A DNA stretch of 64,000 bases from Aspidiotus rigidus (lineage: Eukaryota > Arthropoda > Insecta > Hemiptera > Diaspididae). Location: positions 6,758,001 to 6,822,000 of the forward strand of contig JAVHKY010000034.1 of assembly GCA_035079385.1 (NCBI GenBank). Direction: 5' to 3'. Position numbers and translations under genes: made by a program. Below are positions 14,613 to 57,000 of this stretch, in pieces (within the stretch, counting starts at the first letter, position 1; every line of letters begins with the position of its first letter). The notes beneath the pieces are model-generated. The model saw only the letters and a list, made by a program, of their open reading frames with translations, was not told where the DNA came from and did not search any database.

Positions 14613-14906
14613 ATCGACCCACGGTAATCTGTTAAATCGGAACCATAGTATATTTCGACGAATCGCGATGGAAAGAGAATTTTTTTTTTTTTTTTATTTC
14701 TGATTTTAAAAAAATCGAGGATCACTAATTAAGTGTCATGAACATTCGCCAAGTGTAAAACAGTGCACAGTGTACACGAACAGTGACCGAATACATTAAT
14801 CGATTCGCAGCGTTCGCGTTATAACCTGCTTATTTATCTTCAATGTTCTTATCATAGTCGTTCGTATACCTGTCTTCACGATAACGTCTGCAATTTTCGA
14901 GTTATC

Positions 14907-17309
14907 ATGACGGATAAAATAATAACAAACAACGTTTCTCCTCCTGATAAATTTTCGTTCAAACCCGAGGATTGGCCCAGATGGAAGACGAGGTATGTTC
15001 GATATCTAGCGGCGGCGGGCCTCGACAAACAGGAAGACAACGTAAAAATCAACTCCTTAATATACACCATGGGAGAAGAAGCAGAGGACATTTTTGCGTC
15101 ATTTTCATGGAACCCAAAGAAGGACCAGGAAGCGTACGAAAAAGTCCTAGAAAAATACGAATCGTACTTCATTCCTAAAAGAAACACGATCCATGAAAGG
15201 TGTATGTTCTTCCTGCGACGTCAGAGGCCAGGCGAGCCCGCTGACGAATTCATTACTTCTCTCTTCAAATTATCCGAAAATGCCGACTTTAAAGACATGC
15301 GCGAAGACTTGATCCGCGACTTTCTTGTTCTCGGGCTATTAGATAAAGACTTGAGTAAAAAAATGCAATTGATGCAAGACCTGACCCTTCAGAAAGCCAT
15401 GAATACCGTTCGCACCCACGAAATGGTAGAAAAACAGCAAAGTATGCAGATTCGAGAAACTTGCGACCAGAAAGTAGACGTCGATAGAGTATACTCGCGC
15501 TCCCAACGTTGGCCAGAAAAGAAAAACTTCTCATCAACGAAACAAAATGTACCAGAAAAAGAATCGAGAGATAGACAGTGTCGGCGATGTGGCTCTTACC
15601 AGTACCACGACCGTCTATCATGTCCGGCCCGCAACGCTGAATGCGGAAAATGCCGGTTCAGAGGTCACTTTGAAAAATTTTGCCGCACAAAACCAGAAAA
15701 TATAACTCAAAGAAGACGAAATGATCGACGCGAGCCTAAGCGAGCTCAGTACGCTAAAGTAAATTCAGATTCCGACAGCGACTTAGATTTAAAGGAGGGT
15801 CATATATCCCGCGTAAAACGCTATTCAAGCTCCGACTCGGCCGACGGTTATATCGGACATGTGAAAAAGATCAAAAAAGTGCAGTCCATAGCTAAGGAGG
15901 ACTATGACTTTGCTTGTAAAATTGGAAAAAAAGACCGTGTCCTACAGATTGACTGCGGAGCGGACGAAACAATTGCTTCCACCTCCTATTACGATCCGGA
16001 ATATAAGCTATACAGTCCCGACTGTAAGTTCGAGGTTCCTGGTGGAAACCGCTTAGATATAGTGGGTATGCAGAAAATCCCAATCACGTACCAAGGAAAA
16101 GTATCTGTACAAAAAATATACCTAGCTAAGAACCAAAGAACGGCGCTCTTAGGAAAGCCTGCAATAGCGGCTTTTGACCTAATAAAACGCATCAATGCCT
16201 CTTCTGCAGAAAACTCTGAAAAATACCTGCCAGAAAATAGATACTCCGGCATCTTCAAAGGCTTAGGCTGCATCCCTGGAGAATACAAAATTACTCTAAG
16301 AGAAGGGGCTAAGCCGTTCGCAATTACGGTTCCTAGAAGAATACCCTACCCCCTCCTTGGTACAGTGAAGGAAAAGTTGGCAAAAATGGTTACAGACGGC
16401 GTTATAACACCGATAAAGGAACCCACAGACTGGGTCTCCCCCATGTCAATTGCTACTCGAAAAGGAAAAATTCGTCTATGCATCGACCTCACTCGCCTGA
16501 ACAAAAACGTAAAAAGAGAAATCTTCCCTCTACCGCCAATTGAGGAATCGTTTTCAAAACTAAAAGGAGCCAAAGTGTTCTCAAAACTGGACGCAAACTC
16601 GGGATTCCACCAGTGCAACCTTGCTGAAGAGTCAAAGAAACTAACGACATTTCTAACCCCATTTGGAAGGTTCTATTTCAATCGACTACCATTTGGGATC
16701 ACTAGCGCCCCCGAATTTTTCCAATCTCAGATGAACCGCATCCTTGAAGACTGCCCAAATACAACGTGCCACATGGATGACATTCTAGTGTGGGGAAAGA
16801 CAGTAGAAGAGCACGACCGTCACTTGAACAAAGTACTCTCAAAATTAAGGGAGTCTAACCTCACGCTAAATGCGGAAAAATGTGAATTCCGTAAGAAGTC
16901 CATCAAATATTTAGGATTTATAGTATCACACGATTCAATAAAACCAGACAAAGAAGAGGTCGAAGCCATACTGCGGATGTCCGAACCGAAAAATCGCGCA
17001 GAACTACAGTCATTCTTAGGCAGCGTTAACTTTCTTTCTCGACACATCCCAAATCGCTCGGACATATTAGAACCATTACACTCGCTACTCAGAAAAGACT
17101 GTTCATTTTTTTGGGGACCTGCCCAACAAGAAGCGTTTGAAACAACAAAGGAAAAACTCGCATCCGCCCCAGTCCTGGCAATCTACGACCCGAAGCGACC
17201 AACAATAGTATCCACCGACGCCTCCTCGTACGGCCTTGGCGGCGTTCTACTTCAAAAAGATGAGGAAAACAACCTCCGGCCAGTCGCATATATGCGTCTT
17301 GTAGTCTGA
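14907..17309 (+). pseudogene. gag-pol, first part: Gag, protease, RT and start of RNase H (frameshifted)
   Basis: The frame starts at an ATG 312 bp after the 5' LTR and runs 800 codons. Residues ~1-200 are Gag-like. Residues 225-239 form a C-x2-C-x5-H-x4-C knuckle and 246-259 a classical C-x2-C-x4-H-x4-C knuckle. The aspartic protease core is at ~346-357, with D349-C350-G351 in place of the usual DTG/DSG, and the closing LLGKPAI segment follows. RT spans roughly residues 480-660, with [28 protein letters not shown] and HMDD (622-625). His before MDD is, as I recall, seen in relatives. RNase H begins with [12 protein letters not shown] 2-bp (AT) duplication within 17288-17293 then shifts the frame and a stop follows at 17309. 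Confidence 0.93.
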
Positions 17310-19009
17310 CCAAAGCGCAAAGGAACTACGCGCAGATTGAAAAGGAATTATACGCCATTGTATGGGCATGCCTGAAATTCAAATCGTATCTGATTGGCAT
17401 AAACTTTCAGATTGAAACAGACCACAAACCTCTGATTCCGATCTTAACGACTAAGTTCTTTGACGACTTATCACCGCGGATCCAAAGACTACGCATGCAT
17501 CTACTTCAATTTAATTTCGAAATTTCGCATACTCCTGGAAAGGATCTCATAACGGCTGACCTTCGGTCAAGAAAACCAACAACTAAATCCTCCCTCGTTG
17601 AGAAAAAATTGATGGAGGACTTAGAATACGCGTCCGTCAATGTAATCAGCATGATACCTATACGATCGCGGCTAATGGGCAAGATACTTGAAGAACAAGA
17701 TATCTCCCACATTGGCCAAGCTCTCCACCAATATATACGTTACGAATGGCCCAAGAACCTACCTGACGAACTCATAGAGTACCGCAAATATGAAACATCG
17801 CTCTCAATGATTGATGGTCTGATAGTGTACGGAGGAAATCGTGTCTGGATCCCTCTTGCACTCAGAGCAGAAATTCTCTCTCGCCTCCACGAAAGCCATA
17901 TGGGCTTCGAAAAAACCTACCGACTAGCACAGACAGGGGTCTGGTGGCCCGGCATGTACAAAGATATCGAAAACACAGTTCAATCATGCACACACTGCGC
18001 GGATAAGCGCCCAAATCCAAAAGAACCACTCATCACCACTGAGCTACCTTCGAGACCATGGGAGAAAATTGGTGTGGACATCCTGCAGAAAGACAAGCGA
18101 AATTATCTAGTAGCTATCGACTACTACTCTAAATATATGGAATTGGCAGAACTACCCACGCTGACATCAAAGGTCGTAATACAACGCCTAAAAGCTACCT
18201 TTGCCCGTCACGGAATACCCCTTGTGATGTTTACAGATAATGGTCCGCAACTAACGTCATTTGAAACGGCGGCTTTTGCAGAAAAATATGATTTTGAAAT
18301 CATAACACGCAGCCCAGCGTACCCGCAAGCTAATGGACTTGCCGAGGCAGCCGTCAAGATTGCGAAAAAAATACTCGACTCTGATGACCCGCATCTGGCG
18401 CTCCTCACTTACCGCGCTACGCCGACAAAGTTGAACTTCAGTCCAGCGGAACTTCTCATGAACCGTCAAATCCGCTGCACTATCCCGCGTATCAAACTGA
18501 AGAACGAAACGCCGCCACGACGAGAAGTTGAACGTAATCACGAAATAAGCAGACGCCGCATGGAACGGTACTACAATAGATCGGCACGAAATCTAACCGA
18601 ACTCTTACCGGGAACCCGCGTATTAGTCGACGATCTACAACGACGAGGAACAATCGTCCGAAAACGAAAAGAGCCACGATCTTACGACGTCCATCTCGAC
18701 AATGGAGGCACGATTCGCCGAAATCGCAGGAACCTCCGATGCCCAAAATCCTACATCGAAGAAATCGACGATCATCCCATCGATATTAATGCCAAGGAAG
18801 CCAAACCGACTAGTACCTTGAGCACCCCAAAGAAGAACGAACCACCGACGACCCCGAGTTCACGAGAAAAGAAAAATCGGAATAAAACCAAACCAATCTT
18901 GTCGTATGGTCTTGTTCCGGCTCCAAATCACACTAGGTCTGGAAGAGAGATTGCTCATCCCGACCGATTTCAAGCGGAAGGACCGATTCGGGACCGATCC
19001 AAGAAGTAG
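17294..19009 (+). pseudogene. gag-pol, second part: rest of RNase H and integrase
   Basis: This is the continuation of the same polyprotein after the 2-bp frameshift; the first ATG in this frame is at 17495. RNase H ends around ETDHKPL..SPRIQRLRMHL. An H2C2 zinc-binding module follows (H..H in the HESHMGFEKT segment, C..C in SCTHC). The integrase core has the DDE residues in GVDIL, FTDNGPQ and AYPQANGLAEAAVK. A basic C-terminal tail follows, rich in Lys/Arg/Pro. Integrase inserts the cDNA into host DNA; the 5-bp flanking duplication is consistent with it. No chromodomain or envelope was recognised. Stop at 19009. Confidence 0.93.
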
Positions 19010-23649: not shown

Positions 23650-26600
23650 TACAGGGTGGACCAGAAGAAAGGTGTTACCAGTTAAATGGGAGTTTGCGCT
23701 AAATATGTCGTAGCGCGAAAACGCAAAACGTTACGAATTTTGTATCTCAATTTTATCTTTAATTTGAGCCACATCCGAAGTTTCTACGACTTTTCTGAGT
23801 CGAGTTATGGACCAAAATGTTCCGAAAATTCACCAAATCGCCAGGGTTCCCAAAATAGGGCTTGAAAATTAATTAATTTACAGTATTGAGCTGAAGTTCG
23901 AAAATTTTAATAATAAAATTACTGTTTTTCAAGTGAATTTGGACGGGGAATACGAAAAAATTTGTAACAAAATCCTAAGAAATACCAAAATGGGTTAATG
24001 GGCCTAAAAATGGTCTAAATTTCCCCAAGTTGGAATATCGTCTAAACTTTTGAATTGTTATTCGATTTTTCAGTGGAATATGGCGCTGAGTCCGAAAAAA
24101 ATGCTTAAAAAGTTCTTCGAAGCACCAGAAAGGAGTTAATGGGCCCAAAAAGGGCCAAAATTTACCCAAATTGGAAAATCGTTCAAACTTTCAAATTTTA
24201 ATTTGATTTTTAAGTGGAATTTGGCGCTGAGTCCGAAAAAAATGTTTGAAAAATTCTTCGAAGCACCGACAAAAGGGGTTAATGGTCCCAAAACGGGGCC
24301 AAATTCCCCCAAATTGGAAAATTGTTCAAACTTTCAAATTCTCGATTTTCAAGTGGAATTTTGCGCTCAGTCCGAAAAAAATGTTTAAAAAATTCCTTAA
24401 GCATCAAAATGGGTTAATGGGCCCAAGAAGGATCAAAATTTCCCCACTTTGGAAAATTGTTCAAACTTTCAAATTTTAATTCGATTTTCAAGTGGAATTT
24501 CCCGCTCAGTCCGAAAAAAATGCTTAAAAAATTCTTTGAAACACCGAAATGGGTTAATGGGTCCAAAGGGGTCCAAATTTCCCCAATTTGGAAAATTGTT
24601 CAAGCTTTCAAATTTTAATTTTGATTGTCATGTGGTATTTCGCCCTGAGTCCGAAAAAAATGTTTAAAAGATTATTCAAAGCACCAAAAAGGGGTTAATG
24701 GGCCCAAGAAGGATCAAGATTTCCCCAAATTAGAAAATTATTCATCTTTTCAAATTTTAATTCGATTTTCAAGTGGAATTTCGCACTCAGTCCGAAATAA
24801 ATGCTTAAAAAATCTTCGAAGCACCAAAATGGGTTAATGGGCCCAAAGAGAGTCCAAATTTCCCCAAATTGGAAAATCATTCAAACTTTCAAATTATAAT
24901 TTGATTTCCAAGTGGACTTTCGCGCTGAGTCCGAAAAAAAATGTTAAAAAAATTCTTCGAAGCACCAAAAAAGGGTTAATGGGCCCAAAACGGGGCCAAA
25001 ATTTTTCCAAATAGGAAAATCGTTCAAACTTTCAAAATTTAATTTTATTTTCTAGTGGACTTTCGCGCTGTGTCCGAAAAACGTGTTTAAAAAATTCTTC
25101 GAAGCACCAAAAAGAGGTTATTGGGCTCTAGAAGGGTCAAAATTCCCCCGAATTGGAAAATTGTTCAAACATTTAAATTGTAATATTCGATTTTCAAAGG
25201 GAATTTCGTGCTGAGTCCGAAAAAAATGTGTATTAAATTCTTCGAAGAAGCGACATGGGTTAATGGGCCAGAAAAAGGTCAAAATTCCCCCAAATTGGAA
25301 AATTGTTCAAACTTTCAAATTTTAATTTGATTTTCAAGTGGAATTTTGCGCTGAGTCCGAATAAAGTGCTTAAACAGTTCTTTAAAGCAGCAAAAAGGCC
25401 CAAAATTTTCCCAATGGAAAATCGTTCAAACTTTCAAATTTTAATTTGATTTGCAAGTGGCATTTTGCGCTGAGTCCGAGAAAAATGCTCGAAAAATTCC
25501 TCGAAGCACCAAAATCCAAATCGATATTGAATTAAACTTATTATTTTTCGTTCAATTAATAAAAAAAATCCTATTCTAATTAATATTATTAAAATTAAAA
25601 TTAATAATTTTATTTATTATTTTAATTTAAATTCTAAATTTAAATTATTAATAACATTAAATTTTCCAATTCAATAACTATGTTTCGACTTATTCAATAT
25701 AATTTTGAATTGACGGGCAGATGGGCTCAAAGAGAATCAAAATTCCTCCAAGATGAAAAATTGCGTAATCTTCAAAAGTTGTTTTCAATTCTGAAGTAAA
25801 ATTTAGCGCCCTGTCCGAGAATAATACTGAAATGGCCCTAGATGATCTCTAAAATGAAAAATCAAAAATTTTTCTCATTCTGCAGTAAAATTGTTGATTC
25901 AGGGATGGAAGGAATGTTGACAAGTTTATCTGCCGTTGAGTGCTCGCGGAGTGAGAGATCGACTAGCATTGAGTGACAGATCCGAAAGAGGAAATTCTTC
26001 TCATTTGGGGATTACAAATTCATCTTCCGTTGAAGGTTTGCAGTGAAAGATCGACTAGGGCTCTGCGTTTGATCAAAGCGGGAAAAAGTGCGAAAACTCT
26101 CGTTTTCACTCGAAGAACGCAAAGTTGGTCTTCTGTTGCGTGCTTGAGATGAGAGATCAACTGACGTCCCACCTATGAACGAAGCGAGCCGAAGTGCAAA
26201 AACTCCTTGATTCAGGCAATGGGAAGATACCGCAAATTTGGTCTTGCTCGCCATGAGCGATCTGCTTCAGCTCTGTCTTTTATTGAGGCAGACGAACGCC
26301 CGGAATTTCTCGGGGTTTCACCCGGAAGAGGGAATGATACCGTGAAGCTCGACTATCGTCATGAGCGTGCGGTAAGAAAACAATCAAGACCCTATGTATT
26401 ATAGAGGCGGGCGGGTGATCCCTGAATTCAACATAGATCGACTGAGGCCCCGCGTATGATCGAGGCGAGTGCTTCCGCGAAAACTCTTGATTGTTTCGGG
26501 CGAAAGGAGAATGATACCGGCGACTTCGTTTCCCATTACATGCTCGTGGTAAAAGATCGACCGAGGCCCCACGTTTGATATAGGCGGGTGAATACTCGTG

Positions 26601-28781: not shown

Positions 28782-31700
28782 AGTCGCGTGAGTAGTACAC
28801 AACTTTTCTTCTCAAAATGCAAAAATCATTGAGAGAGTCACTCCTTCTCTTTAAATTAAATACCAATGACCTGTCAATCATGCCAAATATTTGAAGAATG
28901 AACCATGAAAGTCAGTTTATAAATTCTATCACTACGACGTCACATCAACTGATAACAGAGTAAAAATACCTATAATCCAATAAGGAAACCTGAATTTTGT
29001 TTCAATTTAGGCTAGGAGTCATCTAAAACCTACGAAACGTCTTCAGGAAACACACTCCACTCCCCCTGCCCAAACTGCTACGAGGCTATAACAGTTGTTT
29101 CTGCGATATTTGCAAATTGATATTTCGATTACTCCCGAATTGATTAATCGTAACCTACAGAATCGTATTAACTCAATTGGAAACGCGCTGAGGACCTACT
29201 ATCAATTAATCGTCGAAAAAATTGTTGGTGCCCATCTTCAGATTGAGACTATAACTTATCTAAGTCTCGAAAAAATCCATCCAGTAGTTTTGGAGCACAT
29301 CCGCAAGATTTACAGGGGGAAGAAGCAGTCAACTTTCTGGACGCTTTGGAGACCCTATATTACTTTCATCATGAAGAAAATCGGGTTTCTTTATACAGGG
29401 TGGACCAGAAAGATGTTCCGTAGTACAAAAACGCAGAACTTTAGACGTATAGTTTAAAATAATGTACGAATTTTGTATCTCAATTAAAGCTCCAATTTGA
29501 GCCATATCCGAAGTTTTCACGACTCTTCTGAGCTGAGTTATGGACCAAAATGTGCCAAAAATTCACCAAATCGCCAGGGTTCCCAAAATAGGGCTTGAAA
29601 ATTAATTGATTCACAGTATTGAACTGAATTTCGAAAATTTTAAAAATCAAATTATTGTTTTCTCAAGTGAATTTGGACAGGGAAAACTAGAAAAATAGTA
29701 CCAAAATCCTAAGAAACACCTAAATGGGTTGATAGGCCCAAAAAGGGTCAAAATTCCCCCAAGTTGGAAAATTGTTCAAACTTTTGAATTGTATGTCGAT
29801 TTTTAAGTGGAATTTCGCGATGAGTCCGACAAAAATGTTTGAAAATTTCTTCGAAGCACCGACATGGGTTGATGGGCCCAAAGAAGGTCAAAATTTTCCC
29901 AAATTGGAAAATTGTTCAAACTTTCAAATTTTAATTCTATTTTCAAAGGAATTTTTCACTGAGTATAAAAAAAAGATGCTTAAGAAGTTCTTCGAACCAC
30001 CAAAAAGGGGTTAATGGGCCCAAAAAGGGCCAAAATTTTCCCAAATTGGAAAATTGTCCAAACTTTTAAATTTCAATTTGATTTTCAAGTGGCATTTTGC
30101 GCTGAGTCCAAAAAAAAATGCTTCAAAAGCTCTTCGAAGCACCAAAAAGGGGTTAATGGGCCCAAAACGGGGCCAAAATTTCCCCAAATTGGAAAATCGT
30201 TCAAACTTTAAAATTTTAATTTGATTTTTAAGTGGACTTTCGCGCTGAGTCCGAAAAAGATGTCTAAAAGTTTCTTCGCAGCACCAAAAAGGGATTCATA
30301 GGTTCAAAAAGGGTCAAAATTCCCCCAAGTTGGAAAATTGTTCAAACTTTTGAATTGTATGTCGATTTTTAAGTGGAATTTCGCGATGAGTCCGAAAAAA
30401 ATGTTTAAAAATTTCTTCGAAGCACCGACATGTATTGATGGGCCCAATGAAAGTCTAAATTTTCACAAATTGGAAAATTGTTCAAACTTTCAAATTTTAA
30501 TTCGATTTTCAAAGGAATTTTGCGCTGAGTATAAAAAAAAGATGCTTAAGAAGTTCTTCGAACCACCAAAAAGGGGTTAATGGCCCCAAAACGGGGCCAA
30601 AATTTTCCCAAATTGGAAAATTGTCCAAACTTTTAAATTTCAATTTGATTTTCAAGTGGCATGTTGCGCTGAGTCCAAAAAAAATGCTTCAAAAGCTCTT
30701 CGAAGCACCGAAAAGGGGTTAATAGGCCAAAAACGGGGCCAAAATTTCCCCAAATTGGATAATCGTTCGAACTTTAAAATTTTAATTTGATTTTCAAGTG
30801 GACTTTCGCGCTGAGTCCGAAAAAGATGTTTAAAAGTTTCTTCGAAGGACCAAAAAGGGGTTAATAGGTTCAAAAAGCGGCAAAATTTCCTTAAATTGGA
30901 AAATCGTTCAAACTTTCAAATTTTAATTTCATTTTCAAGTGGACTTTCGCGCTGAGTCTGAAAAAAATGTTTAAAAATTCTTCCAAATACCGAAGTGGGT
31001 TGATGGGCTCATAGAGAATCAAAATTCCTCCAAGATGAAAAATTTGCGTAATCTTCAAAAGTTGTTTTCAATTCAGAGGTAAAATTTAGCGACAAGTCCG
31101 AGAAAAATACTGAAATGGCCCTAAATGACCTCCAAAATGAAAAATCAAAATTTCTTTCTTTCTGCAGTAAAATTGTTGATTCAGGGAATGGAAGGAATGT
31201 CGACAAGTTCGTCTGCCGTTGAGTGCTCGCGGAGTGAGAGATCGACTAGCATCGGGTAACAGATCCGAAAGAGGAAATTGCGGAAATTCTCCTCATTCGG
31301 GGATTAGAGGGAGACGACAAATTCATCCTCCGTTGAAGGTTCGCAGTGAGAGACCGATTAGGGCTCTGCGTATGATCAAAGTGGGCCAAAGTGCAAGAAC
31401 TCTTCAACTCTGGCAATAGAAGGATACCGAAAATTCGGTCTTGCTCGTGATGAGCGATCAGTTACAGCTCAGTCTTTGATTGAGGCAGACGAACGCCCGG
31501 AATTTCTCGTGGTTTCATCCGGAGGAGGGAATGATACCGTTAAGCTCAACTTTTGTCATGAGCTCGCGTTAAGAGAACGATCAAGACCCCTGTTTGGAAG
31601 AAGCAGGCGAATGATTCCTGGGTTCAACATAGATCGACTGAGGCTCCGTGAGGCGGGTGCTTCCGCAAAAACTGCTGTGGTTTCTTGCCAAGGAGGGAAT

Positions 31701-32333
31701 GATAGCGACGACTTCGTTTTCCATTACATGCCCGCGGTAAAAGATCGACCTAGGCCCCGTGTATGATTAAGGCGGGTGCTTCCGCTAAAATCGTGTTGTT
31801 TCTTGCCAAGGAAAGTTAACAGTTTTTTTTTACCTCAGCACACAATTTTACCCTAGAATCAAGAAAAACTCTGAAGGTTAGGCGATTTTTTTCGTTTTGG
31901 AGAAATGTTGAACCTTTTTGGTCCCATCAATCTATTTTGGTGCTTCGCAGAATTTCTTAACCATTTGATTCAGATTTAGCGCTAAATTTTATCTCAGAAT
32001 CCAGAAGAACTTCGAATATTAGGCGGTTTCATCATTTTGGGGAAATTTTGACCCTTTTTGGGCCCCGTAACCCATTTTTATGCCTCGCAGAATTTTTCAA
32101 CAATCATATTCGGCTTCAGCGCTGAATTTTACTCCAGGATCGGGGAACACTTTGAAGATTACGCTATTCTTTCAATCAGGAAAATTGGTTTTTGATGATT
32201 CACAATCTTGGGAACCCCTGCTGTAGAATTTCGGAACATTTTGGTCCATAACTCGATTCAGAAAAGTCGTAAGAACTTCAGATATGGCTCAAATTGAAGA
32301 TAAAATTGAGATACAAAATTCTTATATTTAAAC

Positions 32334-32345
32334 TATACGTCTAAC
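32334..32345. repeat. 12-bp target-site duplication, left copy
   Basis: TATACGTCTAAC here and again at 33299-33310. The related sequence at 54370 (inverted) runs through this site without interruption, which supports insertion of 32346-33298. Confidence 0.88.
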
Positions 32346-32396
32346 TATTAAAAATTATTTTATTTTTGGTTCTGCCCGCACATATTACAAATTATA

Positions 32397-32437
32397 GGCT
32401 TAACGTTTCGGCTGACCCGCAGCCTTCATCAGAAGAC
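32397..32437 (-). ncRNA. Hammerhead ribozyme, ORF-sense copy
   Basis: The minus strand reads CTT, CTGATGA (32432-32426), A, helix II GGCTG-CGGGT-CAGCC, GAA, short palindromic helix III ACGT, T as the cleavage-site base, then AAGCC. All catalytic-core bases (CUGAUGA, GAA) are present. Helix I pairs about 3 bp (CTT with AAG). The TGATGA of the core is also the double stop of the upstream ORF. Confidence 0.75.
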
Positions 32438-32935
32438 GTCGGGTGGTAAATTATGTAATACGTTGGATAAATGGACAAAAAGTATCTCTATATAACGACA
32501 GAACATATCAAATGTAGGGAATAATACGCGAATTCGATTTTTCAAAGATGTCATTCTTCTGTCTTGAGAATGGTGAATGATATTCCACCACCTGTTGTAA
32601 TGTAAGAAGTACGATTCCTTTACTGTTTGATCCGCGAGGTTTATAGTGAGAGCGTCAAGATCTGGCGGAGCAGCATTCCTATCTCTCAAATTAGCATATT
32701 GGTTAAAGTAGCTGAAAATTAATTCGTATAGCTCAAACCTACATCGGGGAAAGGAGATGACACCCACTTTCTTCAGCAGTTCATTTCCTTCAGTCAACTT
32801 CACTCCTGCCTCCTTTCTTTTTTCAGCTTCAGCTAGACGTAGGTCCTTTTCAGACTGGAATTGATTTTTCAGCAAACTATTTTCCGCTTTCAAACCAATG
32901 ATTTCGTTTCGGAGTTCTTGAATTTCCGACATCAC
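32429..32935 (-). CDS. 168-aa hypothetical protein with N-terminal coiled coil
   Basis: Only substantial ORF of the 953-bp element. Residues ~1-50 (SEIQELRNEIIGLKAENSLL... then a Lys/Glu/Ala-rich stretch) have a heptad pattern with Ile/Leu at a/d positions and look like a dimerising coiled coil. Residues ~60-168 are a mixed, Phe/Tyr/His/Trp-containing region (FSYFNQYANL, NRWWNIIHH, FPTFDMFCRYIE) that I do not recognise. There is no RT, nuclease or zinc motif. It starts at the first ATG (two Met in a row) and ends in tandem TGA TGA codons lying inside the hammerhead core. It could be an RNA-binding or chaperone-like protein of the element, but that is a guess. Confidence 0.6.
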   Translation of the reverse strand: MMSEIQELRNEIIGLKAENSLLKNQFQSEKDLRLAEAEKRKEAGVKLTEGNELLKKVGVISFPRCRFELYELIFSYFNQYANLRDRNAAPPDLDALTINLADQTVKESYFLHYNRWWNIIHHSQDRRMTSLKNRIRVLFPTFDMFCRYIEILFVHLSNVLHNLPPDVF

Positions 32936-33171
32936 GATGATAAAAGGTATTCTGAGCTTCCGAGTTGAACAATAATGAGAATGAAAATGAGCAAAATGTG
33001 AAGTATTTAATCGAAACGAAAACGATCAATTCTCTCTTAATAAAAATGCTCGGAACACGTTGTCAAAAAGATGGCATCCCTAATGCTTGTTTATCTTTGT
33101 TCGATCTGTTATGATTCTTCTTTCACACTGTTTTTTCGTTGTTCTACCCGTTTTTGCTTCATTGTATTTTT

Positions 33172-33212
33172 AGCTTCTGATGAAGGCTGCGGGTCAGCCG
33201 AAACGTTAAGCC
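33172..33212 (+). ncRNA. Hammerhead ribozyme, antisense-end copy
   Basis: AGCTT, CTGATGA (33177-33183), A, GGCTG-CGGGT-CAGCC, GAA (33200-33202), ACGT, T (33207), AAGCC. Helix I is 4 bp (GCTT with AAGC), helix II 5 bp perfect, helix III minimal and palindromic. That fits the type-I hammerheads known from Penelope-like elements and retrozymes, which often act as dimers. Confidence 0.8.
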
Positions 33213-33534
33213 TATAATTTGTAATATGTGCGGGCAGAGCCAAAAATAAAATAATTTTGAATAATGAAATTTCCTTGCACGAAAAAATTGTTTTGGATTA
33301 TACGTCTAACGTTTTGCGTTTTCGTGCTACGACAGATTTAACGCAAACTCCCATTTAACTGGGAACATCTTTCTGGTCCACTTTGTATATAGGCCTATAT
33401 TTACGCTTAAAGAAATTTTTTTGTCCGCGGATCTCCTCCAAAACTACTGAATAGATTCTTTCGAAAGTTAGATAAGTTATAATCTCAATCTGAAGATGAG
33501 CACCAACTATTTTTTCGACGATTAATTGATAGTA

Positions 33535-34664: not shown

Positions 34665-37004
34665 CTACCGAGGAGGACATGACTGAACTAGCGAGTCATC
34701 ACAATGTGAATCATACTCGTAAACTAATTCAATCAAACCCTCATCAGGTATGTACCTGTTGAGCACATTTAGGTTATCGTTATTCAGATGGCGAATAATT
34801 TCGATGTGTTCTAGCGCGGTACGTTTGAAAGCCGAGGACTCTCTATGGAGGAGGGACTCAGATCCCTCTATGAAACCATGGCCAGTGGTAATAAGATGGT
34901 CCGCAAATGCCGAATCACCCAATTTCTTCTTTTCCCACGCCTTCCTATGCTCATCTATTCTAATTTTGAGCTGACGTCCAGTCTCGCCTATATAGATTCC
35001 ATTACAATCATTACACTCAATTTTGTAAACCCCGCTTCTTTCGACCAGTGGGATAGGATCCTTTAACTTGACGAACAAACTTTTTACAGTGTTCAGATTG
35101 TAAAACACTGGCCGAAACGCAAATGGGCGGAGGACACGACCTAATTGGGAAGAGAATTTCCCCAAAAACGGAAGCCCAATCCAACGTTTCCTACTATCTG
35201 ACGCTGGATTACGGGGGAGGGAGGTAGTGGAATCAAGGCATTTCCGAGTCAATTTCCTATGGACCATCAAGTCAATATCCAAGCTGATCTCGTTCACTCT
35301 GGCCAAGTGCTTTATAGTCAAAAGCTCCTGTTGAAAAGCGAGCTGACCTAATGGAATACTCGTCAACCGGTGGATATAGCTATTAAAACCAGCATATTTG
35401 TGAGCAACCGGGCAGAAAGATCTGCCTTGGACAGTAATATCGGTCGAGGTATCTTTTCTATAAATGGCAAATTCGTGGGCACCTTCTCTATTGGAGATAG
35501 TAAGGTCCAAAAAATTTATAGATGGACCGCCTACTTCTAACGTGAATTTGATGGATGGGTATAAACTGTTAAGATACCTGAGAAACTCCAAAAGGAGATC
35601 CCGTTGACCGGTCCACAAATACAACACATCTTCGACGTACCTGTGCCAATAATATATATGACCCAAAAACCCCTGACCAGAGGAAAAGAGATCAAGCTCA
35701 AATTTAGACATGAAAACCTCCGAAATGAGAGAACCCAGAGGAGAGCCAATAGGGATACCTACCTCCTCAGGAAATTCGACAAATTTGCCTTCAAATTTGC
35801 AAAAGTTGAGAGACCAACAAATATTGAGTAAATTAAAAAATTCTGCCAACTCTTTGTGACAGATATTAGATTGGATCAAAAGGTCTCCCATATGTTGCAT
35901 GGCAGTAGCTCTAGGGATACTCGGAAATAAGCCGATAACGTCAAAGGAGCATAGGGTTGAATCAGGCGGAAGAATGGCATCCTTAAGCTTATTAGCCAAA
36001 GAGACCGAATTCTTCACAGAGTAGGATGACTCAAATTCCACTCTAGATTTGAACCAACGGTCCAAAAATTTCGCCAAGAAGTACGTGGGGGAAGACACAA
36101 AAGAAACGACCGGCCGCATCGGGGTGTCCCTCTTATGAACCTTAGGTAGCCCGTACAATAGGGGCGGCACTGGATTGGGCTCAAGAAGCATTCTTTTAAG
36201 CTTAGGGGTCTTAATAATGAATTCACACGTGTTTATAACACGTCTAACTTCTTTGACGTGATTTGGAAAATTGAAATCCGCATTTTCCTTGGCGCCACAC
36301 TGGTCGAGAACGTCATAGACCTTGGAGACGTAAGAGGACTTATCCATAACGACAATGGCATTCCCTTTATTAGCCTTAGTTATGGTTAAGCCCTCCTCCC
36401 TGACCTTCCTCTTGATCCTCTTAATCACCTCAAAGGCCAGATCATTTATACGAGGGAGGGGGGTATCGCGGACAAAGGCGGCACACGCTTTCTGAGTATT
36501 AACCCCAGGCCCAATTTTTATTTCGAGGTCCGCAACAACTTTGGCCAAAGTGTTAGCATTATTAAGAGGGGGTAACCCGAATTTTAACCCCTTCTCCAAG
36601 AGATACAACTCGTCACTCTCAACCTCAACATTACTACAATTTATAATCCGCGGTTGAAACTTTTGGATAACGCTGACGTCAGTACTCACTTCCTGGACAG
36701 CGGAGGCATTCAAATTTAGGAGGGAGCTGAGCTTCTTATTTTTCTTACGTTTCAATTTAGCCTCAAAAGACCGACATTTAAGGTTAACCGACTTGATAAA
36801 CAGATCCAACTCACCCGGCGAAAGTAAAGCAGAAAGCTTAGAATGGACCAACAAGTTCAACCTTGTGGTGATATTCAACTTCCCATGCCACCTCCGCAAC
36901 TCAGTACGGATCCATTTTTCTGTCAGAAATTTTTCCAGTTTCCTAGTGGTCTGAGCACAATCGGAGAACAGCCGAAATTTGATAAACTTGGGTTTCACAT
37001 GCAA
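34665..37004 (-). CDS. Penelope-like polyprotein: RT plus GIY-YIG endonuclease, YVDD changed to YVED
   Basis: An uninterrupted 779-codon ORF. The N-terminal ~265 residues include a basic KRKKNKKL stretch and the conserved LPPLNN..A.VVADLEIKIGPG segment. RT runs from about residue 270 (PPLLYGLPKVHK) through CSFDVIGLFPSIP, GIPIGSPLGSLISEVFMSKFELD and the motif C box. At box C it reads YVED (Y456-D459): the first catalytic Asp is Glu, codon 35631-35633. All other copies here with this region read YVDD. The GIY-YIG nuclease is at ~656-710 (GVYKIECNDCNGIYIGETGRQLKIRIDEH). The protein would act in the nucleus by nicking the target and priming cDNA synthesis. Loss of the Asp suggests an RT-defective enzyme despite the intact frame. 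Confidence 0.93.
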   Translation of the reverse strand: MHVKPKFIKFRLFSDCAQTTRKLEKFLTEKWIRTELRRWHGKLNITTRLNLLVHSKLSALLSPGELDLFIKSVNLKCRSFEAKLKRKKNKKLSSLLNLNASAVQEVSTDVSVIQKFQPRIINCSNVEVESDELYLLEKGLKFGLPPLNNANTLAKVVADLEIKIGPGVNTQKACAAFVRDTPLPRINDLAFEVIKRIKRKVREEGLTITKANKGNAIVVMDKSSYVSKVYDVLDQCGAKENADFNFPNHVKEVRRVINTCEFIIKTPKLKRMLLEPNPVPPLLYGLPKVHKRDTPMRPVVSFVSSPTYFLAKFLDRWFKSRVEFESSYSVKNSVSLANKLKDAILPPDSTLCSFDVIGLFPSIPRATAMQHMGDLLIQSNICHKELAEFFNLLNICWSLNFCKFEGKFVEFPEEVGIPIGSPLGSLISEVFMSKFELDLFSSGQGFLGHIYYWHRYVEDVLYLWTGQRDLLLEFLRYLNSLYPSIKFTLEVGGPSINFLDLTISNREGAHEFAIYRKDTSTDITVQGRSFCPVAHKYAGFNSYIHRLTSIPLGQLAFQQELLTIKHLARVNEISLDIDLMVHRKLTRKCLDSTTSLPRNPASDSRKRWIGLPFLGKFSSQLGRVLRPFAFRPVFYNLNTVKSLFVKLKDPIPLVERSGVYKIECNDCNGIYIGETGRQLKIRIDEHRKAWEKKKLGDSAFADHLITTGHGFIEGSESLLHRESSAFKRTALEHIEIIRHLNNDNLNVLNRYIPDEGLIELVYEYDSHCDDSLVQSCPPR

Positions 37005-37110
37005 TTTTAAACACTTATTAAGAAACCAAATGGGATGAAAACGATAACCGTTGGTTACGAAACTTCACAAAGAGAAACCGTAAATACGCCTCATCAGCGT
37101 TATTAATACA

Positions 37111-37225
37111 ATTGATTCGGTTCTCTAAAATATGACCAGAAACATATAACGTCGACATACTCAACGATTAAGACGTAGTGTCGTCGTTAGATGTTTCTGG
37201 TCATATTTTAGAGAACTGAATCGAT
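37111..37225. repeat. 5'-end hairpin of the Penelope element
   Basis: The 35-nt arm 37111-37145 is the reverse complement of 37191-37225 with two mismatches. Pairing continues inward (TAACGTCGACA with TGTCGTCGTTA), leaving a loop of about 21 nt. It lies in the PLE 5' terminal region, upstream of the ORF. Confidence 0.85.
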
Positions 37226-37242
37226 TGCCAGAATGAGAGCTT

Positions 37243-41994: not shown

Positions 41995-42279
41995 GAAAGA
42001 CAACGATTTTTTACGTGCGGGATAATATTCAGGAGGGGGTAGTTAGTAGATGAGAATACCAGCGAAAAATTTGGTCGCCTAGTCGGGATCCGAACACGAG
42101 ACCTTTCGATTGCTGGGCGACTGCTCTAACGGTCTAACCGCTGAGCTACGAGGGGATCAAACGATGCGGGTCTCGGGTTCGGATCCCGACAAGGTGACCG
42201 AGTTTTTCGCTTGTATTCTCATCTACTAACTTCCCCCCTCCTGAATATTATCCCACACGTAAAAAATCCTTGTCTTTCG
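41995..42279. mobile_element. Head-to-head tRNA-derived SINE pair
   Basis: The 109-bp left arm (41995-42103) is the reverse complement of 42169-42279 with few differences. The minus strand of 42077-42155 is tRNA-like: A box TAGCTCAGCGG (42148-42138), a GCTC/GAGC D-stem, an imperfect anticodon arm with AGC in the loop, and B box TGTTCGGATCC (42096-42086). The right arm repeats only the B-box half. Imperfect anticodon and T stems, and a C where U33 is expected, argue against a functional tRNA gene. Confidence 0.7.
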
Positions 42280-42456
42280 TAAATGAAGATCGTGAACCTG
42301 CAAATTTTGGAATTAGGCGCTAGAATTTAAGAAACTTCAGAAAAGACATGAAACATATCAAAAGTTCAAGCTCGGAACCTCTAAAGAGGGAGGGACTTTG
42401 AAAAATTTTGCTGATATGAGCCGAAGATACGAGTGAAAGTGGGATTGGGAGAAATT

Positions 42457-44701
42457 CCGCGCTAAATTGAAAAGGAAGAAAAATAAGAAACTTTGTTCCC
42501 TCCAGAAAAAGAAAGAAAATTTGAATAATCCCGCTGTCCAGGAAATGAGACCTGAGGTCAGTGTTATCCAAAACTTCCAAACGCGCATTATAAATTGCAG
42601 TCAGGTTGAGTTCAGTAGTGATGAGGTGAATTTATTAGAGAAAGGGTTGAAGTTCGGATTACCCCCTCTTAATAATAGTAATGCTTTGGCTAATGTTGTT
42701 GCCGACCTCGAGGTGAAAATCGGACCGGGGGTTAATACTCAAAAAAATTGTGCTGCTCTTGTCCGCAATACCCCCCTCCCTCGTATAAACAATTACGCAA
42801 TTGAGGTGATTAAGGGATTAAAGAGGAGGGTCAGGGAGGAGGGCTTAATCATCACGAAGGCTGACAAAAGTAATGCCAGAAGTCCTCCTACGTCTCCAAG
42901 GTCTATGACGTTCTCGGCCAGTGTGGTGCTAAGGAAAACGACAGTTTCAATTTTCCTAAACACGTAAAAGAAGTTAGACGTGTGATAAACGAGTGTGAAT
43001 TTATTATTAAAACTTTCTCGCTAAAAAGATTGCTCCTGGAGCCCAACCCTGTGCCTCCCCTCTTGTACGGGCTACCAAAAGTCCATAAAAAAGATAACCC
43101 GATGCGTCCGGTCGTATCCTTTGTGTCCTCCCCCACGTACGCTCTGGCGAAATTTTTGGACCGATGGTTTAAATCAAGAGTTGACCATGAGTCACCTTAC
43201 TCGGTGAAAAATTCGGTCTCCTTGGCTGGTAGGCTTAAGGATAATATTCTTCCGCTGGGATCGACCCTGTGTTCATTTGATGTGGTCGGCCTGTTCCCCA
43301 ATATCCCCAGAGCAACCGCCATGCAACATATGGGAGACCTTTTGATTCAAACAAATGTTCGCCAAGAAGAATTGGGTGAATTTTTCAATCTCCTCAATAT
43401 TTGTTGGTCTCCCAATTATTGCAAATTCGATAACAAGTTTTTTGAGTTTCCTAAAGAGGTTGAAATACCCATCGGTTCTTCTTTGGGTTCTCTCATTTCG
43501 GAGGTCTTTATGTCTAAGTTTGAGCTCGATTTGTTCTCCTCTGGCAGTGCGTATTTAGATCAGATTTATTATTGGCACAGGTATGTCGACGATGTGTTGT
43601 GTACGTGGACTGGTCCCCGAGAGCTCCTTTTGGAGTTTCTCCAGTATCTAAATAATCAATATCCTTCTATAAAATTTACTTTAGAAATCGGTGGCGCATC
43701 TATTAATTACTTGGATTTGACGATCTGTAATAGAGACGGTATCCATGAATTCGCCATATACAGGAAAGATACTGCGACCGATATTACTGTCCACGGAAAA
43801 TCTTTTTGCCCTGTAGCCCATAAATATGCTGGATTTAACAGCTTAATCCATCGACTGACTAGTATTCCTCAATCAGTCAGCCTTCCAAAAAGAGGTATTA
43901 ACTATAAAGCACTTGGCCAGAGTGAATGAAGTGAAGTTAGACATTGACCTTATGATCCACAGGAAAGTTACTCGAAAATACCTAGATTCCACCACCTCCC
44001 TCCCCCGCAATACGGCCCTAAACAGTAGAGAGCGTTGGATAAGGCTTCCGTTCTTGAGGCAGTTTTCAGCTCAATTGAGTCGTGTCCTACGCCCCTTCGG
44101 ATTTCGGCCTGTGTATTACAACCCCAATACCATAAAAAGTTTATTGGTTAGGCTAAAAGACCCCATCCAACTGGCCGAGAGGAGTGGTGTGTATAAAGTT
44201 GAGTGTAAGGATTGTAACGGAATTTATGTCGGCGAGACAGGCCGTCAGTTGAAAATTAGAATTGCTGAACATAGGAAGGCGTGGGAAAAAAAGAATATAG
44301 GTGAATCGGCGTTTGCGGACCATCTAATCACTAGCGGCCATTGCATTAAAGAGGGGTCCGAGGTCCTCCTCTATAGAGAAAACGCGTATTCGAAGCGGAA
44401 AGTGTTAGAACAAATAATCCGTCATTTAAATAACGACGACCTTAATGTGCTCAACAGGTACATACCTGATGAGGGGTTGATTGAACTAGTTTACGAGTAT
44501 GATTCACGTCGTGATGACTCGCTGGTTCAATCCTGATTTCCTCGTATGTTTCTAGTTTACAGCCGGAGTTGGTTCCGTCGCTTTCCAGTCCCCGTTGACA
44601 ATGATTGTTTAATCGAAAGCGCTCCGGCGTAGTTTAATTTCTGTGGCTAAAATTGTAAATTACTCCGTTTGTATTACTCGCTTGAGTATGACTTCGTCTA
44701 G
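42457..44701 (+). pseudogene. Penelope-like element, 5'-truncated, two frameshifts
   Basis: Plus-strand PLE beginning inside the N-terminal basic region (AKLKRKKNKKL). Frame 42467-42967 ends in a frameshift near 42875, where about 13 bp of the KADKxNAVVVMDK region are missing. Frame 42982-43929 gives RT with SFDVVGLFPNIP, GSSLGSLISEVFMSKFELD and intact YVDD. A 1-2-bp frameshift near 43870-43890 leads to frame 43913-44536 with a complete GIY-YIG module (GVYKVECKDCNGIYVGETGRQLKIRIAEH) and the C-terminus. The tail ends near 44701 with GAGTATGACTTCGTCTAG. Except for these lesions it is well preserved. Confidence 0.92.
44590..44630 (+). ncRNA. Decayed hammerhead-like motif in Penelope tail
   Basis: CCCG, TTGACAA, TGATT-GTTT-AATC, GAAA, GCGCTC, CGG. 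Helix I (CCG/CGG), helix II and the GAA box are kept. The CUGANGA box has two changes, like the copy at 34586. Confidence 0.4.
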
Positions 44702-54005: not shown

Positions 54006-57000
54006 AGCTCCATTTCCCCAACCCCCCATAACGGAATTTTGAGTCGCGACTAGTGCCATAATTTTGTTCGCATTCTGTTCAATTTCGTTCAACAAATTTT
54101 AAAGTTCACTCGTCGTTTCCCCGCTACGCCCATTTCAAATTTGGGGGTTGGGGAAATGCAGCCCGCCCATCTTCGAATTTTGGGTTCGAATCCATGTGAT
54201 AATTTTGTTCAACAAATTTTAAATTTTTTTCATTCGTCGTTTCCCCGCTGCATCCATTTCAAATTTGGGGGCCTAGGGAAATGTATACAGGGTGGACCAG
54301 AAAGATGTTACCAGTTAAATAGGTGTTTGCGCTAGATCTGTCGTAGCGCAAAAACGCAAAACATTAGACGTATACTTTAAATGTACAAATTTTGTACCTC
54401 AATTTTAACTCCAATTTGAGCCACATCCGAAGTTTCTACAACTTTTCGAAGCCGAGTTATGGAACAAAATGTGACGAAAATTTGCCAAATCGCCAGGGTT
54501 CCCAAAATAGGGCTTGAAAATTAATTAATTTACAAAATTGACCTGAATTTTGAAAATTTTAATAATCAAATTATTGTTTCTTAGTTGAATTTGGACGGGA
54601 AAACGAAGAAGATGTTAAAAAAATTCTAAGAAGCAGCAAAATGGGTTATTAGGACCAAAAGGGGACAAAATTCCCCCAAGTTGGAAAAATGTTCAAACTT
54701 TCAATTTTTAATTCGATTTTCAAGTGGAATTTTGCGATGAGTCCGAAAAAATGCTTAAGCAGTTCTTCAAAGCACCAGAAAGGGCCAAAATTTTCCCAAA
54801 TTGAAAAATTGTTCAAACATTCAAATTTCAATTTGATTTTCAAGTGGCATTTTGCGCAGAGTCCGAAAAAAATGCTTCAAAAGCTCTTCGAAGCACCAAA
54901 AAGGTGTTAATGGGCCCAAAAAGAGCTCAAATTTTTCCAAATTAGAAAATCATTCAAACTTTCAAATTTTTATTCTATTTTCAAGTGGACTTTCGCGCTG
55001 TGTCCGAAAAAAATGTTTAAAAAATTCTTCGAAGCACCAAAAAAGGAGTTACTGGGCCCCGAAAGGGTCAAAATTTCACCAAATTGGAAAATTGTTCAAA
55101 CTTTCAAATTTTAATTCGATTTTCAAGTGGAATTTTGCGATGAGTCCGAAAAAATGCTTAAGCAGTTCTTCAAAGCACCAGAAAGGGCCAAAATTTTCCC
55201 AAATTGAAAAATTGTTCAAACATTCACAATTCAATTTGATTTTCAAGTGGACTTTCGCGCTGTGTCCGAAAAAAATGTTTAACAAATTCTTCGAAGCACC
55301 AAAAAGGGAGTTATTGGGCCCCGAAAGGGTCCAAATTTCCCCAAATTGGAAAATCGTTCAAACTTTCAAATTTTAATTTGATTTTCAAGTGGAATTTCGC
55401 GCTCAGTCCGGAAAAAATGTTTAAAAAATTCTTCGAAGCACCAAAAAAAGAGTTATTGGGCCCCGAAAGGGTCAAAATTTCACCAAATTGGAAAATTGTT
55501 CAAACTTTCAAATTTTAATTCAATTTCCAAAGGAATTTTGCGCTGAGTCCGAAAAAAATGCTCCAAAAGCTCTTCGAAGCACCAAAAAGGGGTTAATGGG
55601 CCCAAAAAGAGCTCAAATTTTTCCAAATTGGAAAATCATTCAAACTTTCAAATTTTTATTCGATTTTCAAGTGGACTTTCGCGCTGTGTCCGAAAAAAAT
55701 GTTTAAAAAATTCATCGAAGCACCAAAAAGGGAGTTATTGGGCCCCGAAAGGGTCCAAATTTCCCCAAATTGGAAAATCGTTCAAACTTTCAAATTTTAG
55801 TTTGATTTTCAAGTGAAATTTCGCGCTGAGTACGAAAAAAATGCTTAAAGAATACTTCGGAGAACCAAAATTGGACGATGGGCTCAAAAAGAATCAAAAT
55901 TCCTCCAAGATAAAAAATTGCGTAATCTTCAAAAGTTGTTCCCAATTCTGAAGTGAATTTTAGCGCCGTGTCCGAGAATAATACTGAAATGGCCCTCGAT
56001 GATCTCCAAAATGAAAAATCAAAAATTTTTCTCATTCTGCAGTAAAATTGTTGATTCAGGGATGGAAAGAATTTTGGCAAGTTTGTCTGCCGTTGAGTTC
56101 TCGGGGAGTGAGAGATCGACTAACATCGGGTGACAGACCCAAAAGAGGAAATTGCGGAAATTATTCTCATTTGGGGATTGGAGGGAGACGACAAATTCAT
56201 CTTCCGTTGAAGGTTCGCGGTGAGAGATCGACAAGGGCTCTGCGTATGATCAAAGCGGAAAAAAGTGCGAAAAATCTCGTTCTTTCAGTCGAAGAACGCA
56301 AAGTTGTTCTTCTGTTGCATCCTTGTGATGAAAAATCAACTGACGCCCCACCTATGAACGAAGCGGGCCAAAGTGCAAAAACTCCTTGACTCAGGCAATG
56401 GGAGGATACCGCAAATTCGGTCATGCTCGTTATGTGCGATCCGCTACAGCTCAGTCTTCGATTGAGGCAGACGAACGTTCGGGAGGCGGGTGCTTCCGCA
56501 AAAACTCCTGTTGTTTTGGGCGTAGGAGAGAATGATATCGGCGACTTCGTTTTCTATTACATGCGGTGAGAGAAGGATCAAGGCCCCGTGTTCGATAGTG
56601 GCAGGTGGATGCGAGAAAATTCTCGTACGTTCATGCGAGGGAGGGAGTGATTCGTGAAGCTGGTCTTCGGTCATGAGCTGGCGGTGAGAGATTGAATAGG
56701 CCTCATAATAGGACGGGCAAATCCACAAAAAATCTGGTTGTTTGACGCAAAGGTGGCAAGGTTACTCTGAAGTCTGTCTTCGGTCATGAGTTCGCGGTGG
56801 GAGATCGAGTAGGGCTCCCTGTTCAATAGAGGCGGGCGAATCTGTAAAATTTTGCGTGAAGACACGTGAAGGATCAAACACAGGTCCTTGATCGTTCTCT
56901 CACGGAAAGCTTAACAAATGACGGTCTCGGGATATCCTTCTCTGCACTGGCTGACAAAACGAGAATTTTCTCGTATTCATTTGCTTAGATAAAACGGGGC

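Follow-up and report, generated by a model that had tools for sequence, protein, structure and literature searches.

A Penelope-like element insertion in Aspidiotus rigidus that probably carries a partial cellular mRNA copy between inverted pseudo-LTRs

A compact unit of 953 bp was analysed in a 64,000-nucleotide stretch of the genome of the insect Aspidiotus rigidus (Hemiptera; Diaspididae; assembly GCA_035079385.1, contig JAVHKY010000034.1, positions 6,758,001 to 6,822,000 of the forward strand), which is referred to throughout as the window and numbered from its first letter. The unit is one insertion, it lacks a reverse transcriptase (RT) and is non-autonomous, and its inverted ends, each with a hammerhead ribozyme core, are identified by sequence comparison as pseudo-long terminal repeats (pLTRs) of a Penelope-like element (PLE) from the same genome. 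We consider it probable that the unit is a chimeric retrocopy, namely a PLE insertion in which part of a cellular messenger RNA (mRNA) was copied in place of the PLE body. An earlier note, made from the letters alone, had described a 953-bp element with a 12-bp duplication, inverted ends of about 90 bp and a ribozyme core in each end, and both the borders and the cores are confirmed here (Table 1). The view of it as a non-autonomous, ribozyme-ended unit also holds, for it is a single inserted, RT-less sequence with hammerhead-bearing inverted ends and a non-PLE open reading frame (ORF). The proposal that it represents an undescribed type of element is not sustained, since the ends are pLTRs of a PLE of the same genome and inverted, tailed pLTRs with short duplications have already been published.

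Table 1. Coordinates of the unit and its parts in the window.
Feature	Position	Strand	Remarks
Whole unit	32346-33298		953 bp between exact copies of the 12-bp duplication
Left target-site duplication, TATACGTCTAAC	32334-32345		Exact repeat
Right target-site duplication, TATACGTCTAAC	33299-33310		Exact repeat
Left arm, PLE pLTR	32346-32435	-	5'-shortened, untailed; equals 33174-33263
Left-arm hammerhead core	32406-32432	-	CTGATGA, helix II, GAAA; stem III minimal (ACGU) by reading
Putative captured non-PLE segment	32436-33074	-	639 nt; 0% PLE coverage
ORF	32432-32932, stop to 32429	-	167 codons from ATG, 168 with GTG start; long N-terminal helix
Right pLTR body	33075-33263	+	Last PLE ORF codons, (C)ATCCC TAA, up to the tail
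Right-arm hammerhead core	33177-33203	+	Helix I 5' strand 33171-33176; predicted cleavage after U33207
PLE tail	33264-33298	+	35 nt; start region of PLE coding part, between two inferred reverse-transcription start sites

Insertion of the unit

The two arms (32346-32435 and 33174-33263) form an inverted repeat of 90 nt with 2 mismatches (98% complementary). The surroundings of the unit belong to a diverged repeat family, two further members of which lie in the window (near 54364-54407 and 29441-29485). In these, the left flank is joined to the right one by a single TATACGTCTAA, and the 953 bp are absent; in a third member, near 23732, the TATACGTCTAA segment itself is missing. The exact 12-bp duplication together with the two paralogous empty sites shows that the unit was inserted. 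Diverged repeat arrays related to the flanks, with a spacing of roughly 140 bp, are also found at 23900-26100, 29700-31000 and 54600-56300.

Origin of the ends

The 441-Mb genome was searched with the whole unit as query, and the best 40 of 278 candidates were scored. At least 33 other genomic places match the unit, exclusively through arm, pLTR and tail sequence (roughly query positions 23-116 and 755-996), and all 33 tabled loci were fetched and compared. The right pLTR body shares 97-99% identity with its nearest full-length counterparts among the matches listed (L130, L131, L132 and L133). Upstream of the equivalent of 33075, the end of a PLE frame was found in all 9 rows printed from 7 chosen loci, and the junction of the filling with the right pLTR lies at the PLE stop codon. 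At locus L137, two direct pLTR copies directly flank an 888-codon frame, open from stop to stop, within which the hammerhead lies (LLMKAAGQPKRKAY...). By eye, this frame shows motifs of an RT and ends in a GIY-YIG-like sequence, and its residues 84-883 align at 29% identity to P0048, for which Pfam reports RVT_1 and GIY-YIG. The unit has neither RT nor endonuclease, as its body shows 0% PLE coverage and no RT family was found in its ORF, and it is thus not an autonomous PLE.

Seventeen of 65 pLTR matches start just upstream of the hammerhead, at the equivalents of 33158-33168 (L132, L147-L153 and L155-L159), which suggests a transcription start near these positions. The motif TCATTG, around which these matches start and which has its A at 33161, is initiator-like.

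Tail and paired arms

Inverted pLTR pairs are present in 27 loci when the 33 loci and the window are taken together, always in the order minus then plus, and the other 7 loci have, within the fetched stretches, a single pLTR (L138, L141, L142, L146, L147 and L152) or direct copies (L137). Arms were required to lie less than 2000 nt apart, one of them extending past the equivalent of 33290 and the other not, and by this definition 26 of the 27 inverted-pair loci, window included, have one tailed arm; the exception, L129, has two tails. An additional tail fragment lies inside the pair at L156. The untailed arms terminate at 33255-33273. Exact flanking repeats of 9-14 bp were found in 23 of the 26 pairs, as compared with none of 1000 cross-locus flank combinations, the borders being free to shift by 8 nt, so that the further copies with similar borders and variable duplications that the earlier note proposed to look for do exist.

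In the unit, the 35 nt between the right arm and the duplication, which had been left uninterpreted, are the PLE tail. In L137 and L143 the tail has a close counterpart that extends into the PLE frame, and it is this DNA context that settles the identity of the tail. The translated tail (MKFPCTKKLFW) was also considered as the N-terminus of a known PLE protein, a reading that is unsupported (best score 23 against 106 proteins, mean best 24.7 for 50 shuffles). The unit therefore has what is looked for in a PLE insertion: pLTR ends, a 35-nt tail on one pLTR and a short duplication (12 bp).

The filling and its ORF

PLE sequence covers 0% of the spacer between the arms of the unit, compared with 82-100% in 13 other pairs (pairs with spacers of at least 98 nt, leaving out the long pairs of L129 and L143). 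The 168-codon ORF reported earlier was found again in this filling, and its stop codon coincides with the first UGA in the hammerhead motif CUGAUGA. An ORF of at least 167 codons occurred in 1 of 3000 Markov-1 versions of the element. A DNA search of the genome with 32436-33073, which skips common words, returned the segment itself and one 56-bp piece at C50 (89%), and no sign was thus seen of a family that mobilises this ORF. The corresponding protein search of the genome gave 21 further matches at E<=10, of which 8 reached E<=1e-6.

In the homologue L178, a 730-nt GT-AG intron with the exon borders TTG/GTAGGT ... TTCTTAG/GAC follows the coiled-coil exon, and the ORF of the window is continuous (KL/TE) at the position of this intron. 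L171 and L172 continue past the residues PPDV, and the ORF of the window meets the left arm right after that codon. Given the absence of the L178 intron and the shortening of the ORF at the arm relative to its paralogs, the filling looks like a partial, 3'-truncated copy of a spliced mRNA.

L178, L179, L180 and L181 contain open frames that belong to the protein family of the ORF and form two near-identical pairs (154 and 165 codons); neither L178 nor L180 gave a Pfam match above cut-off. A protein search with the ORF alone retained none of 57 candidates at E<=1, and a profile search listed four proteins without names. The structural model of the ORF suggests four helices, the N-terminal one being long, at a predicted local distance difference test (pLDDT) score of 76 with 7 rows; the model from the single sequence was poor, with a score of 59. 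A viral origin of the ORF was considered and rejected: no relative was found in viral contigs or genome contigs, and no viral fold was matched at E<=0.001, the PDB fold library lying outside that search.

Proposed mechanism

The duplication, the presence of a tail on one arm only and the non-PLE nature of the filling are read directly from the DNA; an order of priming, a template switch and an action in trans are what we infer. A PLE protein with GIY-YIG endonuclease and reverse transcriptase, acting in trans, would make a staggered cut of 12 bp, and each cut strand would then prime synthesis inside a PLE RNA. The putative start sites would be an outer one at 33298, which yields the tail, and an inner one at 33263, which yields none. 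The left complementary DNA (cDNA) would copy the pLTR as far as the 5' edge of the hammerhead, then switch to a spliced mRNA and proceed towards the 5' end of that mRNA; the right cDNA would copy back to the end of the PLE ORF, and the left cDNA would finally be joined to it.

PLE transposition is poorly understood, and the 26 inverted pairs with one tail make a model with two start sites testable on natural insertions. From the copy in the window it would seem that a spliced mRNA, too, can be copied between PLE ends by the PLE machinery; the published gene framed by PLE sequences, in contrast, kept its introns.

Several observations weigh against a captured mRNA copy made in this way. The main weakness is the donor: a recent capture should leave a near-identical one, yet none that is close was found, and the protein matches are partial with no more than 59% identity. 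Codon usage in the ORF is mixed: it supports coding over the first two thirds but not over the last third, which scores like non-coding DNA, and 503 of 6000 non-coding windows equal or exceed the score of the entire ORF. The intron argument draws on one homologue, whose exons show identities of 43% (first) and 26% (second), and the intron could be specific to L178; L171 has an insertion elsewhere that lacks clear GT-AG ends, and L171 itself carries in-frame stops. Template switching is deduced, not directly observed. Concerning the PLE itself, Pfam scores RVT_1 in the L137 frame at 24.6 bits, below the cut-off of 29.6, and does not report GIY-YIG there, and 3 of the 26 pairs (L132, L143 and L156) lack a duplication of at least 9 bp.

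Alternative explanations

The filling might instead be genomic filler DNA that was caught during the end joining of two cDNAs, without reverse transcription of any mRNA. Unique spacers of 0.9-1.5 kb in Pen1 of Adineta vaga have been interpreted as captured host DNA (excerpts of PMC3846280), and poly(A) is not seen at the junctions of the unit on reading its sequence. The uninterrupted ORF at the position of the 730-nt GT-AG intron of L178 speaks for a spliced template, and we regard filler DNA as rather unlikely.

It is much less probable that the unit belongs to a distinct non-autonomous, ribozyme-ended family that propagates through PLE proteins in trans with the aid of its own ORF. Its precise borders and its longer-than-chance ORF would fit such a family, and the pLTRs of A. 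vaga were judged sufficient for mobilisation in trans (excerpts of PMC3846280). Against it stand the single occurrence of the filling by DNA search, apart from the 56-bp piece, the truncation of the ORF at the arm in comparison with its paralogs, and the absence of pLTR matches from the 13 paralog loci examined. A slim chance, hardly different in weight, is given to a hammerhead-ended, PLE-dependent cassette whose ORF product (a coiled coil plus a helical domain) would be expressed with a stop supplied by the ribozyme and would help the cassette or the PLE, other copies residing in individuals or species outside the assembly.

Single pLTRs do occur in the family, but it is highly improbable that two PLEs inserted independently, oppositely oriented, to the left and right of an older gene, because one 12-bp duplication brackets the whole unit, all 953 bp are missing from the related empty sites (which already contradicts two insertions), and one tailed plus one untailed arm is the pattern of the other paired insertions.

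Comparison with known systems

The closest parallels to the unit are found among PLEs themselves. In Pen2a of A. vaga the pLTRs are inverted, one of them has a 31-bp tail, and the duplication is 9 bp, duplications in the A. vaga examples being 8-10 bp (excerpts of PMC3846280); the unit is alike in its inverted pLTRs, the tail on one of them and the short duplication. In Poseidon PAc of Anolis, a hammerhead is located where the coding region begins, and a pair of adjacent reverse-transcription start sites bounds and explains the tail (excerpts of PMC11167929), an arrangement that the unit shares with its two putative start sites. Unlike these canonical PLEs, the unit encodes neither RT nor endonuclease, has unrelated sequence as its body, and shows a duplication of 12 bp.

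The capture of unrelated sequence between pLTRs is already published for A. vaga, where an NRPS gene between Pen3a pLTRs has a target duplication and a known empty site and was read as having moved in trans (excerpts of PMC3846280). The unit likewise has gene sequence of non-PLE origin, from a protein family that may be either a host gene or itself mobile, enclosed by pLTRs and a target duplication, as a gene captured by a PLE should, the donor search having found diverged paralogs only. It differs from the NRPS case in that its ORF is short, apparently spliced and truncated, and lies between inverted pLTRs only. No precedent for a spliced filling between inverted pLTRs was met in the literature surveyed, which was limited in extent.

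Retrozymes, which have direct LTRs in plants and tandem repeats in metazoans and are in neither case described as protein-coding (excerpts of PMC7229834 and PMC7761336), resemble the unit in being non-autonomous, hammerhead-bearing and thought to be mobilised by the enzymes of other elements. The unit is not a retrozyme, as its arms are inverted where direct or tandem hammerhead repeats that yield circular RNA would be required, its stem III is minimal, and it carries an ORF. Terminons are PLE-related, contain hammerheads and have accessory ORFs that include coiled-coil ones, and are also giant, telomeric and endonuclease-deficient (excerpts of PMC6431247); they share the first three properties with the unit, and none of the latter three was found here. 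A Terminon was considered as a reading of the unit and rejected.

Hammerhead cores

The sequence CTGATGA with a 5-bp helix II and GAAA occurs once in each arm, so that the conserved core is present in both as a sequence pattern. In 150 Markov-1 sequences, each 64 kb long, its looser form (CTGATGA, helix II of at least 4 bp and GAA) turned up a single time (0.007 per sequence), as against two occurrences in the window, which are not independent since the arms are copies of each other. The check with a covariance model that the earlier note had proposed turned out negative: Rfam reports no hammerhead in the whole window at gathering score, and none among 6 matches at E<=10 in 32200-33450. Free folding of short segments did not single out the hammerhead either (z 0.01 to -1.55). 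In the left ribozyme, helix I is shortened to only about 3 bp by sequence reading, because foreign sequence lies upstream of it.

Of 47 pLTR segments, 42, the window copy among them, retain CTGATGA as well as GAAAC, perhaps as a result of recent descent. Helix II is nearly invariant across the 47 segments by eye, and covariation is therefore uninformative on the hammerhead. In predicted folds of the full-length transcript of both strands, the two arms pair together and hide the ribozyme, and a transcript of either strand reaches the antisense arm first; for these reasons, self-cleavage of the transcripts of the unit from either strand is doubtful, and little of it is expected from the modelling. 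The hammerheads would thus be carried along as part of the pLTR, any activity in the window copy being hypothetical. The type I hammerheads of PLEs are in general minimal and of obscure role (excerpts of PMC7761336, PMC6155905 and PMC7229834). Hammerhead patterns had no match in viral contigs or in prokaryote contigs, and a looser pattern, which was unspecific, matched at least 120 stretches.

Other elements in the window

Several PLE-related frames are found elsewhere in the window. The neighbouring PLE at 34665-37064 has inverted arms (37109-37157 and 37179-37227) upstream of its ORF, and a CTGATGA beside it at 37097 (minus strand) is without a proper hammerhead core. An inverted repeat at 41995-42278, which surrounds a sequence resembling by eye a short interspersed element derived from transfer RNA (tRNA), adjoins PLE frames at 42437-44536; ARAGORN detected no tRNA anywhere in the window. 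At 14787-19009 there are frames of a retroelement that has domains of RT and RNase H and that we take to be Ty3/gypsy-like.
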